A stretch of DNA of 64,000 nt from assembly GCF_900115495.1 (NCBI RefSeq), contig NZ_FOWR01000009.1, positions 1 through 64,000 on the forward strand, read 5' to 3'. This document shows, piece by piece, positions 21,372 to 39,118 of the stretch. Below the pieces are notes generated by a model. That model saw nothing but the letters and a program-made list of their open reading frames with translations. It was not told where the DNA came from and did not search any database. Both the position numbers and the translations under genes were made by a program. Origin of the DNA: Enterovibrio norvegicus DSM 15893. Its GTDB lineage: Bacteria; Pseudomonadota; Gammaproteobacteria; Enterobacterales; Vibrionaceae. The first letter of the stretch is position 1, and every line of letters begins with the position of its first letter.

Positions 21372-22430
21372 GTGACCGATCTTCTCAGTCAAGACGAAAT
21401 TGATGCGCTTCTCCATGGTGTCGACGATACAGAAGAGGAAGAACCCGAATCGGGTGGTGGGGATCTCGCCTCCGCATCCAATTTCGATTTTTCTTCACAA
21501 GACCGTATCGTTCGTGGGCGAATGCCCACGCTGGAGCTAATTAACGAGCGATTCGCACGTCATATGCGTATTAGTTTGTTTAACATGCTGCGTAAAACGG
21601 CAGAAGTGTCTATCAACGGTGTACAAATGGTGAAATTTGGTGAATACCAAAACACCTTGTTTGTACCCACCAGTTTGAACATGGTTCGCTTCCGTCCGCT
21701 GAAAGGCACGGGGCTTGTCACCATGGAAGCGCGACTGGTCTTTATTTTGGTAGAGAACTTCTTCGGTGGTGATGGTCGTTTCCACGCCCGTATCGAGGGC
21801 CGTGAGTTTACGCCTACGGAACGTCGTGTTATTCAAATGCTGCTTAAGTTGATCTTTGAAGATTACAAAGATGCTTGGGCACCTGTCATGAAGGTGGAAT
21901 TCGAGTATTTAGACTCTGAAGTTAACCCTGCCATGGCGAACATTGTGAGCCCGACGGAAGTGATCGTCGTGAGTTCATTCCACATCGAACTTGATGGCGG
22001 CGGTGGTGATTTCCACATCGTGATGCCGTATTCGATGGTTGAGCCTATTCGTGAATTGCTTGATGCGGGTATCCAAAGTGACAAGATGGATACTGACCTT
22101 CGTTGGTCAAAAGCCTTGCAAGACGAAGTGATGGATGTGGAAGTTGCGCTGACTGCGAAACTACTCGAAACCACGTTGTCATTGCGCGACATGATGGAAT
22201 TGGAAGTGGGTGATGTCATTCCAGTGAAAATGCCAGATGCATGCACTGTGTTTGTTGAAGACTTACCGACATTCCGCGGCAAGATGGGTCAGTCGAATGA
22301 CAACCTTGCGATCAAAATTACAGAAAAACTCAAGCGTCCTGAAGTACAGAAAAGCGATGTAGCTCAAATGGATGAAGAGGATCTGGCACTGGGGCTCCTA
22401 GACGATAACAGCGACGGTGCAAATAATTGA
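21372..22430 (+). CDS. fliM: Flagellar motor switch protein FliM
   Basis: 352 residues; GTG start with TAGGTG upstream. The N-terminal CheY-P-binding peptide LSQDEIDALLHG is at residues 4-15, followed by an acidic linker. The middle CheC-like domain (about 45-230) and the C-terminal SpoA/FliN-like domain (about 250-335) follow. It transmits CheY-P binding to FliG. Confidence 0.96.
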   Translation: MTDLLSQDEIDALLHGVDDTEEEEPESGGGDLASASNFDFSSQDRIVRGRMPTLELINERFARHMRISLFNMLRKTAEVSINGVQMVKFGEYQNTLFVPTSLNMVRFRPLKGTGLVTMEARLVFILVENFFGGDGRFHARIEGREFTPTERRVIQMLLKLIFEDYKDAWAPVMKVEFEYLDSEVNPAMANIVSPTEVIVVSSFHIELDGGGGDFHIVMPYSMVEPIRELLDAGIQSDKMDTDLRWSKALQDEVMDVEVALTAKLLETTLSLRDMMELEVGDVIPVKMPDACTVFVEDLPTFRGKMGQSNDNLAIKITEKLKRPEVQKSDVAQMDEEDLALGLLDDNSDGANN

Positions 22431-32096: not shown

Positions 32097-32477
32097 TTGA
32101 ACACAAACATGAAAATCCTCATTGTTGATGACTTCTCAACAATGCGCCGTATCGTTAAGAACCTCCTTCGTGATCTGGGTTTCAACAACACTGTTGAAGC
32201 TGATGATGGCCTAACAGCTCTGCCAATTCTTAAGAAAGGCGGAATTGAGTTTGTCGTCACTGACTGGAACATGCCTGGCATGCAGGGCATTGATTTGCTC
32301 AAGCACATCCGTGCAGATGATGAATTGAAACATCTTCCTGTATTGATGATCACTGCAGAAGCTAAGCGCGAGCAAATCGTTGAAGCTGCTCAAGCGGGCG
32401 TAAATGGCTATATCGTTAAGCCGTTTACCGCTGCAACGCTAAAAGAGAAGTTGGATAAGATTTTCGAACGCATGTGA
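32097..32477 (+). CDS. cheY: Chemotaxis response regulator CheY
   Basis: 126 residues. TTG start with CGGAGG five bases upstream; the ATG at 32109 is 17 bases from it, so TTG is favoured. Phospho-acceptor Asp56 ([10 protein letters not shown]), acidic pair Asp11-Asp12, Thr86 and Lys108 are all in place. Its position in the flagellar locus corresponds to the motor-binding CheY of Vibrio (CheY3 of V. cholerae). Confidence 0.97.
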
Positions 32478-32512: not shown

Positions 32513-33235
32513 ATGATAACACTCGACCAAGCTAAAGAGCTGGTCAGTTTTCTCGAAGAAGGGAATCAGGAAAGTGCGAATGAGTTACTGCTGAACATCG
32601 GCAGTGAAACTCGCAATCCGCTCTTCAATGAGGTGGGAAAACTGACTCGACAACTGCATGATTCGTTGTCCAATTTCCGCTTGGATCCGCGTGTCAATGA
32701 TCTCGCTAATAGTGAGATCCCTGATGCAAAAGATCGCCTTAACTTTGTTATGGAAAAAACGGAACTTGCCGCCAACCGAACCATGGATGCAGTCGAAGCG
32801 ACGTTGCCTATTGCTGATAATCTTCAGGAATGCCTCGCTCAAGTTCGTCCTCAATGGAACAACTTGATGGGAGGGCGGATTGACCTCGTCAGTTTCAAAG
32901 ATCTCTGTCATCAGATTGATGGTCTTTTGACGCAGGTAGAAGGCGGCACAACCAAACTGCACGGTCAATTGACTGAAATCCTTATGGCGCAAGATTTCCA
33001 AGACTTAACAGGTCAGGTCATTCGACGCGTTATTGAGTTGGTGCAGGAAGTTGAAAAACAACTGGTCGAAATCTTAACCGCGTTTGGGTTAGACGACGAT
33101 CAGCAAGAAGAAACAGAACAAATATCTGGCATCGAGGCTGAGGGTCCGGTCGTTACTGAGGAACAGCGTCAAGAGAAAAACGTGATGCAGAGTCAGGACG
33201 ATGTAGACGACTTGCTTTCTAGCCTGGGCTTTTAG
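32513..33235 (+). CDS. cheZ: CheY-P phosphatase CheZ
   Basis: 240 residues. Long helical hairpin with the catalytic pattern QDFQDLTGQVI: Asp164 and Gln168 correspond to Asp143/Gln147 of E. coli. The C-terminal helix (QDDVDDLLSSLGF) is the CheY-binding tail. Removes phosphate from CheY-P. Confidence 0.96.
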   Translation: MITLDQAKELVSFLEEGNQESANELLLNIGSETRNPLFNEVGKLTRQLHDSLSNFRLDPRVNDLANSEIPDAKDRLNFVMEKTELAANRTMDAVEATLPIADNLQECLAQVRPQWNNLMGGRIDLVSFKDLCHQIDGLLTQVEGGTTKLHGQLTEILMAQDFQDLTGQVIRRVIELVQEVEKQLVEILTAFGLDDDQQEETEQISGIEAEGPVVTEEQRQEKNVMQSQDDVDDLLSSLGF

Positions 33236-33244
33236 GGGTGCGTT

Positions 33245-35383
33245 ATGAGCTTTGAAATGGATGAAGAAATCCTGCAGGACTTTTTGATCGAAGCAGGTGA
33301 AATTCTGGAGTTGTTGTCTGAGCAGTTAGTGGATCTGGAAAAATCGCCAGAAGACCGCGATTTGCTAAACGCAATTTTCCGGGGATTCCACACGGTTAAA
33401 GGTGGTGCTGGCTTCTTATCGCTCAAAGAGTTGGTAGATACCTGCCACGGTGCGGAAAATATTTTCGATAATCTCCGCAATGGCGGTCGAGAACTGACAC
33501 CTGAGGTGATGGATATCATCCTTCAAGCGCTCGACACCGTTAACGAACAGTTTGCGTGTGTTCAGCAGAGCGAGCCTGCCCCTGCCGCAGATCCATCTTT
33601 GTTGGACGCGTTGCATAAGTACAGCCGCCCAGCTTCTGAAGATGAAGCGACGGCAGAGCCGGAACCTGAGCCTGAACCAGAACCTGAACCTGAAGTTGTC
33701 GCAGAAGCGCCAGCTGAAGAAGGTGATGCGATCGCCGGTGATTCCGTCGATGAAATTACCGATGACGAATTTGACCGTTTGCTTGACCAACTTCATGGGT
33801 CGGGTAAGGGACCACAAGTAACAGAAAAACCTGCAGCGGAAGCGCCTGCGGCGGGATCGGACAGCGGTGACATTACGGACGACGAGTTCGAAAAACTGCT
33901 GGATGAGCTGCACGGTTCAGGCAAAGGGCCACTTGATGGAGACGCAGCTGCGCCACCTCCTCAAAACGCTGCGGTAGAAAGTCCGAGTGGTGATGACATC
34001 ACTGACGACGAATTTGAAAAGCTTTTAGATGACTTGCACGGTAAAGGCAAAAGCCCTATCGACAATGCACCGAAAGCAGAAGCGCCAAAGGCTGAACCAG
34101 CGCCAGTGCCAAAACCTGCGCCTAAGCCTGTGCCGAAAGCAGAAGCGCCTGCGGCAAAACCCCCCGCTGTTGCTGCTAAGCCGCCTGCCAAAACAGAAGA
34201 CAAAAAACCACCTGTTCCTCAAGCTGAGCAAACAGTACGCGTAAACACCTCGACGCTAGATACCATTATGAATATGGTGGGTGAGCTGGTGTTGGTGCGT
34301 AACCGTTTGGTGAGTTTGGGTGCGAACAGTGAGGATGAGAACATGGCGAAAGCCGTGACCAACCTCGATGTGGTGACAGCTGACTTGCAAGGTGCGGTCA
34401 TGCAAACGCGTATGCAGCCCATCAAGAAAGTATTCGGTCGTTTCCCACGCGTTGTTCGAGATTTGGCGCGAAGCCTCAAAAAAGACATCGTATTGGAAAT
34501 GCGCGGTGAAGAAACCGACTTGGACAAGAACTTGGTTGAGGCATTGGCCGACCCCATGGTCCACTTGGTGCGTAACTCGGTCGACCACGGCATTGAAATG
34601 CCGGACAAGCGTGAGCAAAACGGTAAGCCTCGTGTAGGTACTGTTACACTTGCAGCATCTCAGGAAGGCGATCACATCTTGCTGACCATCGAAGATGATG
34701 GCGGTGGTATGGATGCTGAGAAGCTTCGTGGCATTGCGGTAGAACGCGGTGTGATGGATGCAGATGCAGCGGCACGTTTGACCGATACCGAGTCATTCAA
34801 CCTGATTTTTGCGCCAGGTTTCTCGACCAAAACCGAAATCTCCGATATCTCGGGCCGTGGTGTGGGCATGGATGTGGTGAAAACCGCGATCACCGCATTG
34901 AACGGCACGATCTCCATCGATTCAGTATTGGGTCGTGGTACGATCATTTCGATCAAAGTGCCGCTAACGCTCGCCATTCTGCCAACCTTAATGGTCGGTA
35001 TCGGCGGAAACCCATTTGCTTTCCCACTTTCTAACGTTAATGAAATCATTAGCCTAGATTTGGCGAGAACCAATACCGTTGATGGTCAATTGACCTTAAT
35101 TGTTCGCGATAAAGCCATCCCATTGTTCTATTTACAGGATTGGCTGTGCAAGAAGCGCGCGTCGAAGAAAGACTCTGGGCATGTCGTCATCATTCAGATG
35201 GGTCATCAGCCAGTTGCCTTTGTTGTTGATTCACTCATTGGTCAGGAAGAGGTGGTGATTAAACCTCTCGATGAATTGTTGCAAGGTACGCCGGGTATGG
35301 CGGGTGCAACGATCACCAGTGATGGTCATATTGCTTTGATTCTGGATGCGCCGAATCTGCTTAAACGCTACGCGGGACGATAA
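33245..35383 (+). CDS. cheA: Chemotaxis histidine kinase CheA
   Basis: 712 residues. P1 Hpt domain with His49 ([13 protein letters not shown]); a linker of about 130-350 made of Glu-Pro runs, three near-identical 20-residue motifs (see repeat entry) and a Pro/Ala/Lys stretch, with no recognisable P2 domain; P3 dimerisation (about 350-405); P4 ATPase ([32 protein letters not shown]); P5 CheW-like (about 570-705). It phosphorylates CheY and CheB. In V. cholerae the linker contains the LID region through which ParP recruits CheA to the pole. Confidence 0.96.
33749..34057 (+). repeat. Three-copy repeat in the CheA linker
   Basis: Three motifs of the form (D)ITDDEF-[DE]-[RK]-LLD-x-LHG-x-GK lie at CheA residues 169-190, 209-229 and 250-271, spaced by about 40 residues. 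The protein repeat is stronger than the DNA repeat: synonymous codons differ, so the motif appears to be kept by selection rather than recent duplication. Each looks like an amphipathic acidic helix followed by a flexible Gly/Lys segment. Confidence 0.9.
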
Positions 35384-36573: not shown

Positions 36574-37353
36574 GTGATAGTCTGGAGTATTGCAAACCAG
36601 AAAGGCGGCGTTGGAAAAACAACATCCACGATTACCCTTGCTGGTCTTCTCAGTGAAAGAAACAAGCGTGTCTTGCTGATCGACACCGATCCGCATGCGT
36701 CGCTCACTACCTATCTGAATTACGATTCGGACACGTTGCCACGTTCTCTTTTTGATCTCTTTCAGCTTCAGACAATTAATCGCGATACGGTAAAACCGCT
36801 TATCCTCAGCACTGAGTATAAGAACCTCGATTTATTGCCTTCACACATGTCGCTAGCAACACTCGATCGCGCTATGGGTAACCGTGGTGGAATGGGGCTG
36901 ATGCTGAAAAAGACACTCGCGTGTCTCGAAGAAGAATACGATTATGCGCTGATCGATTGCCCGCCAATTTTGGGGGTAATGATGGTGAACGCATTGGCGG
37001 CCAGTAACCGCATATTGATTCCGGTACAAACTGAGTTCCTCGCAATGAAGGGACTCGAACGTATGATCCGCACGCTGCAAATTATGCAGAAGTCGCGCAG
37101 CTCTGCGTTCAAGGTGTGCATTGTTCCTACTATGTATGACAAGAGGACGCGTGCCTCTCTTGAAACGCTTCAGGAGCTCAAAGTGCGATACCCCGATCAG
37201 GTATGGACATCTGCCGTGCCTATCGACACCAAATTCCGCGATGCGAGCTTGAAACACATGCCGCCATCGTATTACGCAAAAAACTGTCGTGGCGTTTTTG
37301 CTTATAAAACGCTGCTCTCTTACCTAGAGCGATTGGAGCAGGATGAAAGATAG
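36574..37353 (+). CDS. parC: ParA-like ATPase ParC, polar positioning of chemotaxis array
   Basis: 259 residues; GTG start with AAGGAG 6 bases upstream. Deviant Walker A QKGGVGKTT and LIDTDPHASLT are at the N-terminus. In Vibrio this gene, between cheB and parP, positions chemotaxis proteins at the old pole and ensures inheritance at division. It is not a chromosome-partition ParA (no parB neighbour) and not topoisomerase IV ParC, despite the name. Confidence 0.92.
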   Translation: MIVWSIANQKGGVGKTTSTITLAGLLSERNKRVLLIDTDPHASLTTYLNYDSDTLPRSLFDLFQLQTINRDTVKPLILSTEYKNLDLLPSHMSLATLDRAMGNRGGMGLMLKKTLACLEEEYDYALIDCPPILGVMMVNALAASNRILIPVQTEFLAMKGLERMIRTLQIMQKSRSSAFKVCIVPTMYDKRTRASLETLQELKVRYPDQVWTSAVPIDTKFRDASLKHMPPSYYAKNCRGVFAYKTLLSYLERLEQDER

Positions 37354-38596
37354 CGGTGCTTTATCCAGTGTTGAAGCACTGGACGCTTACTTCGATGCTT
37401 TGTTGGAAGACGATGATTCTCTCCAGCAAGAACAAGAAGAGGTTGTGCAACCAGACAACATGTATCTGGATGCCGACTTCTCTGAGGCGCCTGCACCTGC
37501 GTTAAAACTGCAAGAAGTGACGAGCCCTGAGCGTTTTACAGGTCGGACACTGACACAGGAGGAACGTGATCTCTCCCATGTCGAAAAATTGTTGAGCCAA
37601 TTGAAGCTTGATGAAGACATGGAGGTAGAAGTTGAAGAACTCACCGATGTTGAATTGGCTTCTGAGCTAGAAACCGACATCGAGACGGTGACTGATGCCG
37701 CTGCTGCGGTAGAAGCGTATACCGAAGCCTTAACGGAAACCGTTGATGACATTGCTGAAGTGACGCCTGCAGTGTCGTTGCATTTAGTGAGCGACACCGA
37801 CACAGATTTAGATACAGAGATGAATACCGACATTGAGCTCGACGTTGAGAGCGGTGTCGACACCTCTGTATTAGAAGAAGCAGCGCTTCAGGAGGAGACG
37901 GCACTTCAAGAAGAAACCGATCTGCTTGAAGAGGTTGAGGTTCAACAAGACATTGAACCCGCCACCGTAACGCCACTTCATGTCGACACGCATGTAGATG
38001 TCGAGGTAGACGATACCGAAGAGGTGTATATTGCCTCCGACGTTGAAAGCGACATTGTTGTTGACGCTGACGCTGATGTTGATAGCGATAGCGAACTGGA
38101 CACACAGGCGGGTGAAGATATCATCCCGCCTTGGCAAAACATCGTGCCAGAGCATGCGTTCCAAGTACTTTTCTTTGAATCAATGGGCGTGACTTATGCG
38201 GTGCCGCTGGCTGAGCTTGGCGGTATCCACCAATTGGGCGAATGCAATCATTTGATTGGTCGTCCTGATTGGTACTTGGGATTACAGACAGAGCGAGATC
38301 AGCAACTCGATATTGTTGATACCGCGAAATGGGTAATGCCAGAAAAAATAACAGATAACAGCCATCGCGATGACTATAGTTATATTGTGATCTTGGGTGA
38401 CAGCAAATGGGGGTTAGCATGTAACACCCTATTGGGTACAGAGTCACTCAACGGAGAGCAAGTGCGGTGGCGCGAGCAAGCGGGCAAACGGCCTTGGTTG
38501 GCTGGATTGGTCAAACAAAAGATGTGTGCACTTATTCATGTCGAAGCGCTGATTGCCATGCTTAATCAAGGTATTGATGCCAATGCATTGGCGTAA
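37343..38596 (+). CDS. parP: ParP-like protein with CheW-like domain and long acidic N-terminus
   Basis: 417 residues; overlaps parC by 11 bases. Residues 1-265 are extremely rich in Asp, Glu, Thr and Val, with alternating D-x-D-x stretches (about 145-175 and 230-250). Residues 268-410 resemble a CheW/AIF domain (FQVLFFESMGVTYAVPLAEL, then LGDSKWGLACNTLLGTESL). ParP links ParC to CheA and to chemoreceptor tips in Vibrio. The acidic segment is unlike the shorter proline-rich N-terminus I remember for other ParP proteins. Confidence 0.85.
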   Translation: MKDSGALSSVEALDAYFDALLEDDDSLQQEQEEVVQPDNMYLDADFSEAPAPALKLQEVTSPERFTGRTLTQEERDLSHVEKLLSQLKLDEDMEVEVEELTDVELASELETDIETVTDAAAAVEAYTEALTETVDDIAEVTPAVSLHLVSDTDTDLDTEMNTDIELDVESGVDTSVLEEAALQEETALQEETDLLEEVEVQQDIEPATVTPLHVDTHVDVEVDDTEEVYIASDVESDIVVDADADVDSDSELDTQAGEDIIPPWQNIVPEHAFQVLFFESMGVTYAVPLAELGGIHQLGECNHLIGRPDWYLGLQTERDQQLDIVDTAKWVMPEKITDNSHRDDYSYIVILGDSKWGLACNTLLGTESLNGEQVRWREQAGKRPWLAGLVKQKMCALIHVEALIAMLNQGIDANALA

Positions 38597-38629: not shown

Positions 38630-39118
38630 ATGTCTCAGGTAGCTGAAGTCCAAAAAGACAACGTTAACGATGAGGTCCTGCAGTGGGTGACCTTCCAATT
38701 GGAAGAGGAAACCTATGGCATTAATGTAATGCAGGTTCGTGAAGTTTTACGTTACACCGAAATTGCGCCTGTTCCTGGTGCGCCAGACTATGTTCTGGGC
38801 ATTATTAACCTGCGCGGTAACGTTGTGACGGTTATTGATACGCGTTCACGCTTTGGTTTGATGCAGGCTGATGTGACTGACAACACGCGTGTTATCGTGA
38901 TTGAAGCTGAATCGCAAGTGATCGGTATCATGGTTGATAGCGTGGCGGAAGTGGTTTATCTGCGCACCTCTGAAATCGACACCACACCAAGCGTGGGTAC
39001 GGACGAAAGCGCTAAGTTTATTCAAGGCGTGAGCAACCGTAATGGTAACCTGCTGATATTGGTTGATTTGAACAAACTGCTCTCAGACGAAGAGTGGTCT
39101 GATATGGCAATGCTGTAA
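38630..39118 (+). CDS. cheW: Chemotaxis coupling protein CheW
   Basis: 162 residues. Two SH3-like lobes: VTFQLEEETYGINVMQVREV and GIINLRGNVVTVIDTRSRFG. Couples CheA to receptors. AGAGGA ribosome-binding site; its stop overlaps the next gene (TAATG). Confidence 0.97.
   Translation: MSQVAEVQKDNVNDEVLQWVTFQLEEETYGINVMQVREVLRYTEIAPVPGAPDYVLGIINLRGNVVTVIDTRSRFGLMQADVTDNTRVIVIEAESQVIGIMVDSVAEVVYLRTSEIDTTPSVGTDESAKFIQGVSNRNGNLLILVDLNKLLSDEEWSDMAML

Follow-up and report, generated by a model that had tools for sequence, protein, structure and literature searches.

Repeated FliM/CheZ-like helices in the P1-P3 linker of a CheA from Enterovibrio norvegicus and their possible role in CheY docking

The CheA encoded in the window (the whole stretch of 64,000 nucleotides of Enterovibrio norvegicus DSM 15893 that was analysed) harbours three near-identical 15-residue motifs in the linker between its P1 and P3 domains, and in this type of CheA a conserved, repeated helix stands in the place of the P2 domain. 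Judging from the sequences, the motif array may well be a multivalent dock for the CheY receiver that replaces P2, a reading to which a probability of about 0.58 is given. The P1-P3 linker would then be a flexible tether carrying one to four (here three) amphipathic docking helices of the FliM/CheZ kind, each of which could capture CheY, perhaps also the receiver domains of CheB and CheV, through the same surface that FliM and CheZ contact on CheY and that P2 contacts in other CheAs. CheY tethered in this way would be held close to phospho-P1, and the job of the missing P2 would be done.

According to parts of PMC10542144, P2 is missing in more than half of CheAs, and what stands in for it receives little attention in that survey; the linker helices suggest another route by which the signal may be handed on to the messenger CheY. 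If this is true, one large group of CheAs uses repeated short peptides mimicking the ends by which FliM and CheZ bind CheY, the kinase, the motor and the phosphatase all grip CheY by one kind of handle and compete for it, and the number of handles is a tunable trait. Peptides and point mutations would likewise allow tests of the ParP-binding LID, of CheY specificity and of how the E. coli arrangement arose.

Table 1. Features of the window considered in this study, with coordinates counted from its first nucleotide.
Feature	Position	Strand	Basis
FliM N-terminal peptide LSQDEIDALLHGVDD, motif-like	21384..21428	+	sequence, profile comparison
cheY, proposed ligand	32109..32477	+	ORF (list opens at TTG 32097, ATG 32109 used); Pfam Response_reg
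cheZ	32513..33235	+	Pfam CheZ, 3.3e-75
CheZ C-terminal tail QSQDDVDDLLSSLGF, motif-like	33188..33232	+	profile comparison; alignment with the end of PDB chain 1kmi_Z
cheA, 712 aa, P1-linker-P3-P4-P5, no P2	33245..35383	+	ORF, Pfam, AlphaFold2
P1 (Hpt) domain, residues 8-100	33266..33544	+	Pfam PF01627
P1-P3 linker, residues 101-327, motif-bearing, mostly disordered	33545..34225	+	AlphaFold2 pLDDT <50 between motifs; spacer conservation 0.29-0.35
Motif copy 1, residues 171-185	33755..33799	+	54.8 bits; AlphaFold2 helix 173-184
Motif copy 2, residues 210-224	33872..33916	+	54.8 bits; AlphaFold2 helix 212-222
Motif copy 3, residues 252-266	33998..34042	+	53.1 bits; AlphaFold2 helix 254-265
P3 (328-388), P4 (436-575), P5 (582-708)	34226..35368	+	Pfam
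parC, ParA-like ATPase	36574..37353	+	Pfam AAA_31
parP, reported to bind the CheA LID	37343..38596	+	CheW domain 274-405; named by position and profile

Motif copies in the linker of the window CheA

The genes of the cluster run FliA, CheY, CheZ, CheA, CheB, ParC, ParP, CheW; by this order, rather than by a class model, the cluster was assigned to flagellar system F6 as presented in parts of PMC7184735. Pfam recognises Hpt (residues 8-100), H-kinase_dim (328-388), HATPase_c and CheW domains in the CheA protein, and the named CheAs nearest to it come from Enterovibrio and Grimontia. A P2-like segment (WVIRFIPNKDMFFSGNDPVRILREL...) is present in the second CheA of the same genome (locus L002), which lacks the motif.

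All three copies follow the consensus ITDDEF[DE]xLLDxLHG and begin at residues 171, 210 and 252, inside the stretches in which an earlier, sequence-only reading of this DNA had noticed three repeats. Their scores of 53.1-54.8 bits, obtained with a profile to which only loci outside the window contributed, compare with a top score of 14.7 in 20000 shuffles of the window linker. That reading had also stated that the codons differ between copies, and this was borne out: at identical residues the copy pairs of the window have identical codons in 2/12, 3/12 and 6/14 cases, which is at or below the 5.3, 5.3 and 6.4 expected from the codon usage of cheA itself. Over all loci, 2458 of 4836 between-copy codons are identical versus 2286 expected, a value near saturation. 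Since codon identity between copies is about that expected, their likeness is kept at the protein level.

AlphaFold2 modelling of the window CheA as a single chain (64-row alignment, mean pLDDT 79.0, pTM 0.49) places isolated helices at the three motifs (Table 1), with pLDDT of about 68-78 in the motif blocks and below 50 in the stretches between them, and leaves the P1-P3 linker without a P2 fold. Each motif is thus predicted to be a short helix outside folded domains, as expected of a FliM/CheZ-type peptide, and the packing of the motifs into a folded P2, which the sequence-only reading had considered incompatible with its own proposal, is not seen. When CheA residues 1-328 were compared with CheA chains of solved structure, some of them P1-P2 or full-length, no match extended beyond residue 137.

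Distribution of the motif and of P2 among CheAs

A search with the P3-P5 core in 276 genomes of the class matched at least 200 of them, and 120 CheA loci were taken from the matches listed; those cut by a contig end, short frames and many low-ranked matches were left out. The 93 loci (L089-L181) with a core identity of at least 48% are referred to as motif-type and the other 27 as controls, a split that was set post hoc, with CheAs lacking the motif reaching 47.8% (L250) and 46%. With a threshold of 0.34 bits (the 99.9% level of the shuffles), every motif-type CheA carries the motif, in one, two, three or four copies at 6, 42, 41 and 4 loci, respectively; a strict cut-off of 15 bits retains at least one copy in 91/93 (L172 and L180 drop out). 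The motif is absent from all 27 controls, the top score being -3.0. The loci are related by descent, and the counts carry no p-value. Two, three and four copies were found in 1, 77 and 2 of 80 named loci, a biased set, as two of the search peptides were the motif itself. In a phylum sample of 20 hand-chosen loci, 19 lack the motif (best score -7.0) and L252 (52% identity) has three copies; a natural receiver fusion was sought in L252 and not found, its N-terminal extension being a mere open GC-rich frame. The copy-number survey proposed by the sequence-only reading returned one to four copies throughout the motif-type CheAs. The array, treated in that reading as a trait of the window CheA, is indeed present there, but it is not confined to this protein and is general in the type. 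No description of this motif, or of a FliM-like or linear motif in CheA, was found in the searched portion of the open-access literature, and an earlier description is possible.

Conservation of the motif columns is 0.80-0.81 in copies 2 and 3 and 0.54 in copy 1, compared with the lower values of the spacers (Table 1). In the profile of 454 copies the most constant positions are Ile1 (87%), Glu5 (98%), Phe6 (100%), Leu9 (95%), Leu10 (99%), Asp11 (98%), Leu13 (91%), His14 (88%) and Gly15 (92%), and the copies follow one another at a median distance of 43 residues (middle half 39-47, n=283). A low-complexity accident is rejected by the linker shuffles together with this conservation, and recent DNA duplication of one unit by the near-saturated codons and by the positional identity that the copies retain in 217/231 cases.

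Several loci deviate from the common pattern. Long, perfect-looking repeats occur in L170 (genome G172; LPEGVDPDG[DE]ITDDEFEALLNQRD) and L172 (G261), where the FliM-like half of the motif is kept, the LeuHisGly end is lost and CheY residue 117 is N or A. In L017 (Candidatus Enterovibrio luxaltus), the CheA frame is intact and has two motifs, no CheZ adjoins it and a ParP fragment of 103 residues is left; this cluster looks like one in decay.

Pfam finds no P2 in the window CheA at E up to 1, and the best 25 of 74 families on the 93 motif-type linkers do not include P2. One must bear in mind, however, that the Pfam P2 and CheY-binding models matched 0/27 control linkers as well, although a P2 profile built from the family finds 24 of them, and the silence of Pfam was therefore discarded as proof of absence. 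When this home-made profile was trained on half of the control CheAs (n=27) and tested on the remaining half, it recovered 13/14 and 11/13 held-out linkers (24/27 in all, L182, L183 and L208 being missed) and none of the 93 motif-type linkers. The statement of the sequence-only reading that P2 is not recognisable hence stands on the profile and on the AlphaFold2 model, both of which point to the lack of a folded domain between P1 and P3. What the motifs have in common with the P2 (CheY-binding) domain is their place between P1 and P3 and the proposed job; P2 is a folded domain, whereas the window CheA has short helices in a disordered linker.

Likeness to FliM and CheZ and the candidate ligand CheY

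The sequence-only reading had likened the motif to the N-terminal peptide of FliM and the tail of CheZ, and both were confirmed at the positions concerned (nt 21384 and 33188). The three align without gaps, and comparison of their profiles over 12 columns (27 FliM N-termini, 162 CheZ tails) gave 14.7 bits for CheA-FliM, 14.2 for CheA-CheZ and 19.6 for FliM-CheZ, above a background of 1804 windows from eight families (mean -7.9, s.d. 5.65). The four top windows for the FliM profile among these 1804 were the CheZ tail (17.6) and the CheA motifs (13.5, 13.4, 13.2). Outside CheA, the CheA-motif profile scored best on an internal CheZ stretch (NQEEANELLDEL, 14.8), which exceeds the CheZ tail (12.5), and on a ParP stretch (12.4).

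The CheA motifs display the register [IL][ST]xx[EDQ]-hydrophobic-[DE]xLL and, in common with FliM and CheZ, hydrophobic residues at i, i+3, i+4 and i+7 of an amphipathic helix, with identity to either peptide at just 4-5 of 13 residues. With the CheY-binding peptide of FliM (LSQDEIDALLHG) the motif shares the gap-free register [IL][ST]xxE[FI][DE]xLL, the hydrophobic pattern and the form of an isolated short helix, but it is internal and repeated, has Phe for Ile and ends in DxLHG. The CheZ tail (SQDDVDDLLSSLGF) follows the register including the last Leu and then Gly; the CheA motif differs from it by Phe for Val, by His-Gly for Gly-Phe and by its non-C-terminal location. Neither FliM nor CheZ shares Phe 6, His 14 and Gly 15 of the motif; these residues may act on a different partner, which speaks against the CheY reading. 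Since acidic amphipathic helices score well in general, the likeness is a resemblance and no proof. PDB entry 1kmi, chain Z of which includes the CheZ tail, we take to be a complex with CheY.

CheZ was not found in the motif-bearing genomes G086, G020, G152 and G131, and FliM is present in G020 and G131, the two in which it was looked for. CheZ adjoins many motif-type cheA genes; a tie of the motif to CheZ is rejected on account of these four genomes and of some P2-type CheA genomes that have CheZ.

The CheYs of named and unnamed motif-type loci (n=168) have K117 in 148 cases and R117 in 4, and V103 and Q94 in 165 each. By contrast, 5/5 CheYs from P2-type lineages carry E117, A103 and, at position 94, N or D; these are the five true P2-type rows of an F7-labelled group of ten, the other five coming from motif-type CheA genomes. 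Parts of PMC7184735 report the same changes where the CheA partner changed and read them on the P1-P2 interface. In our view, they could be accounted for if an acidic peptide had given way to P2. The residue pattern is only consistent with binding of the motif on the alpha4-beta5-alpha5 face of CheY, and K117 is not strict, as L177-L179 have intact motifs but E117.

The proposal of the sequence-only reading that an array docking CheY replaces P2 is the one that fits the distribution of the motif best. CheY as the ligand, the face bound, the multivalency and a gain in phosphotransfer we infer. Phosphorylated CheY is the form preferred by the peptides of FliM and CheZ, and this weakens the case for CheY docking, since the product would be held. 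A further point against the proposal comes from parts of PMC10542144, where a CheA devoid of P2 is described as still able to phosphorylate CheY. A wider conjecture, possible but on balance doubtful, is that a repeated FliM/CheZ-mimicking peptide and not P2 is the ancestral CheY dock of gammaproteobacterial flagellar CheAs of this type, the same peptides forming the LID, with ParP and CheY sharing them or competing for them. Docking on an E. coli-type P2 would then be later for this line of CheY, which would explain why CheY shows a charge reversal at residue 117 and altered residues at 94 and 103.

ParP and other candidate partners

The LID is reportedly the ParP-binding region of Vibrio CheA, the subject of a paper by Ringgaard in 2014. 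Parts of PMC7534058 locate it to the stretch from P2 to P3 and restrict it to species that have ParC/ParP, and the comparison with the motifs follows that description. The motifs, too, lie in the CheA linker before P3 and in the same kind of gene cluster. They might therefore be the LID itself, binding the CheW-like AIF domain of ParP and holding arrays at the pole, with no docking of CheY. In agreement with this, parC and parP lie downstream of cheA in the window, and as the motifs are the main conserved elements of the linker, the LID probably overlaps at least one of them. The motif is, however, wider in occurrence than the LID. Whole-genome searches of eight motif-bearing genomes (G008, G137, G001, G172, G261, G020, G152 and G023, with 2, 3, 4, 3, 2, 1, 1 and 2 motifs, those of G261 and G023 being weak) gave neither a ParP match reaching the model end nor a ParC match above ParA level, and several of these genomes keep the Leu-His-Gly end of the motif. 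They belong to six families and are drafts, 91-100% complete. Their ParA-level matches reach at most 141 bits and about 30-35% identity, against 260-313 bits and 49-55% for true ParCs in five control genomes; in G010, ParP was not found, but a ParC-like gene at 42% was. Adjacency of ParC is otherwise common, 70 of the 93 loci having both ParC and ParP by a later, drifted profile. The iterated ParP profile had drifted into CheW and was excluded from claims of absence. Since the ParP profile also overlooked ParP in four genomes that have ParC nearby (G095, G142, G237 and G102), absence of ParP alone is weak, and the argument depends on the joint absence of both proteins. Because the motifs persist in the eight genomes in which neither was found, ParP binding is unlikely to be their sole role, and the LID, which the sequence-only reading had offered as an alternative to CheY docking, is improbable in this exclusive form and may be a second role.

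Such a double use, in which the repeated helix serves both CheY and ParP, perhaps by copy, and localisation and signalling compete or are coupled, seems unlikely as well. LID and motifs share the linker, and the retained positional identity of the copies would allow a division of labour, yet no ParP-tied difference between copies was seen.

Docking of the helices within the array itself, on P1, P4, CheW or a receptor, with regulation of the kinase, would accord with the strong conservation and with the His-Gly end missing in FliM and CheZ; it is nevertheless very unlikely, as AlphaFold2 leaves the helices undocked, though one chain only was modelled, and the copy number of one to four is variable, which suits a soluble ligand. 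Least probable are short helices of the SHOCT type (PF09851), possibly with an oligomerising role. The Pfam SHOCT model touches 82/93 linkers at E up to 0.1, its second half, ITxxEFexxxxxL, is common to the CheA motif, and five of ten linkers examined reach the Pfam cut-off by summing copies. The first half of the model is, however, absent from the motif: in the ten linkers the best stretches run only from position 9 to position 27 of the 28 in the model, the window stays below the cut-off of 27 with a score of 23.9, and SHOCT membership was rejected, as no single stretch covers the whole 28-position model or passes the cut-off.

Two further proteins of the cluster have helices or tails of related appearance. 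The ParP N-terminus (37343-38596, residues ~11-25) contains a FliM-like helix (VEALDAYFDALLED), and the pattern [YF][LFM][DEQ]x[LM][LM] occurs in the first 90 residues of 54/125 ParP frames versus 14/6595 other frames; parts of PMC5706961 describe the ParP N-terminus as the ParC-binding part. CheW (38630-39118) terminates in LLSDEEWSDMAML, an xxEW-like tail of this kind being present in 106/158 CheW frames and scoring weakly on the CheA motif profile.
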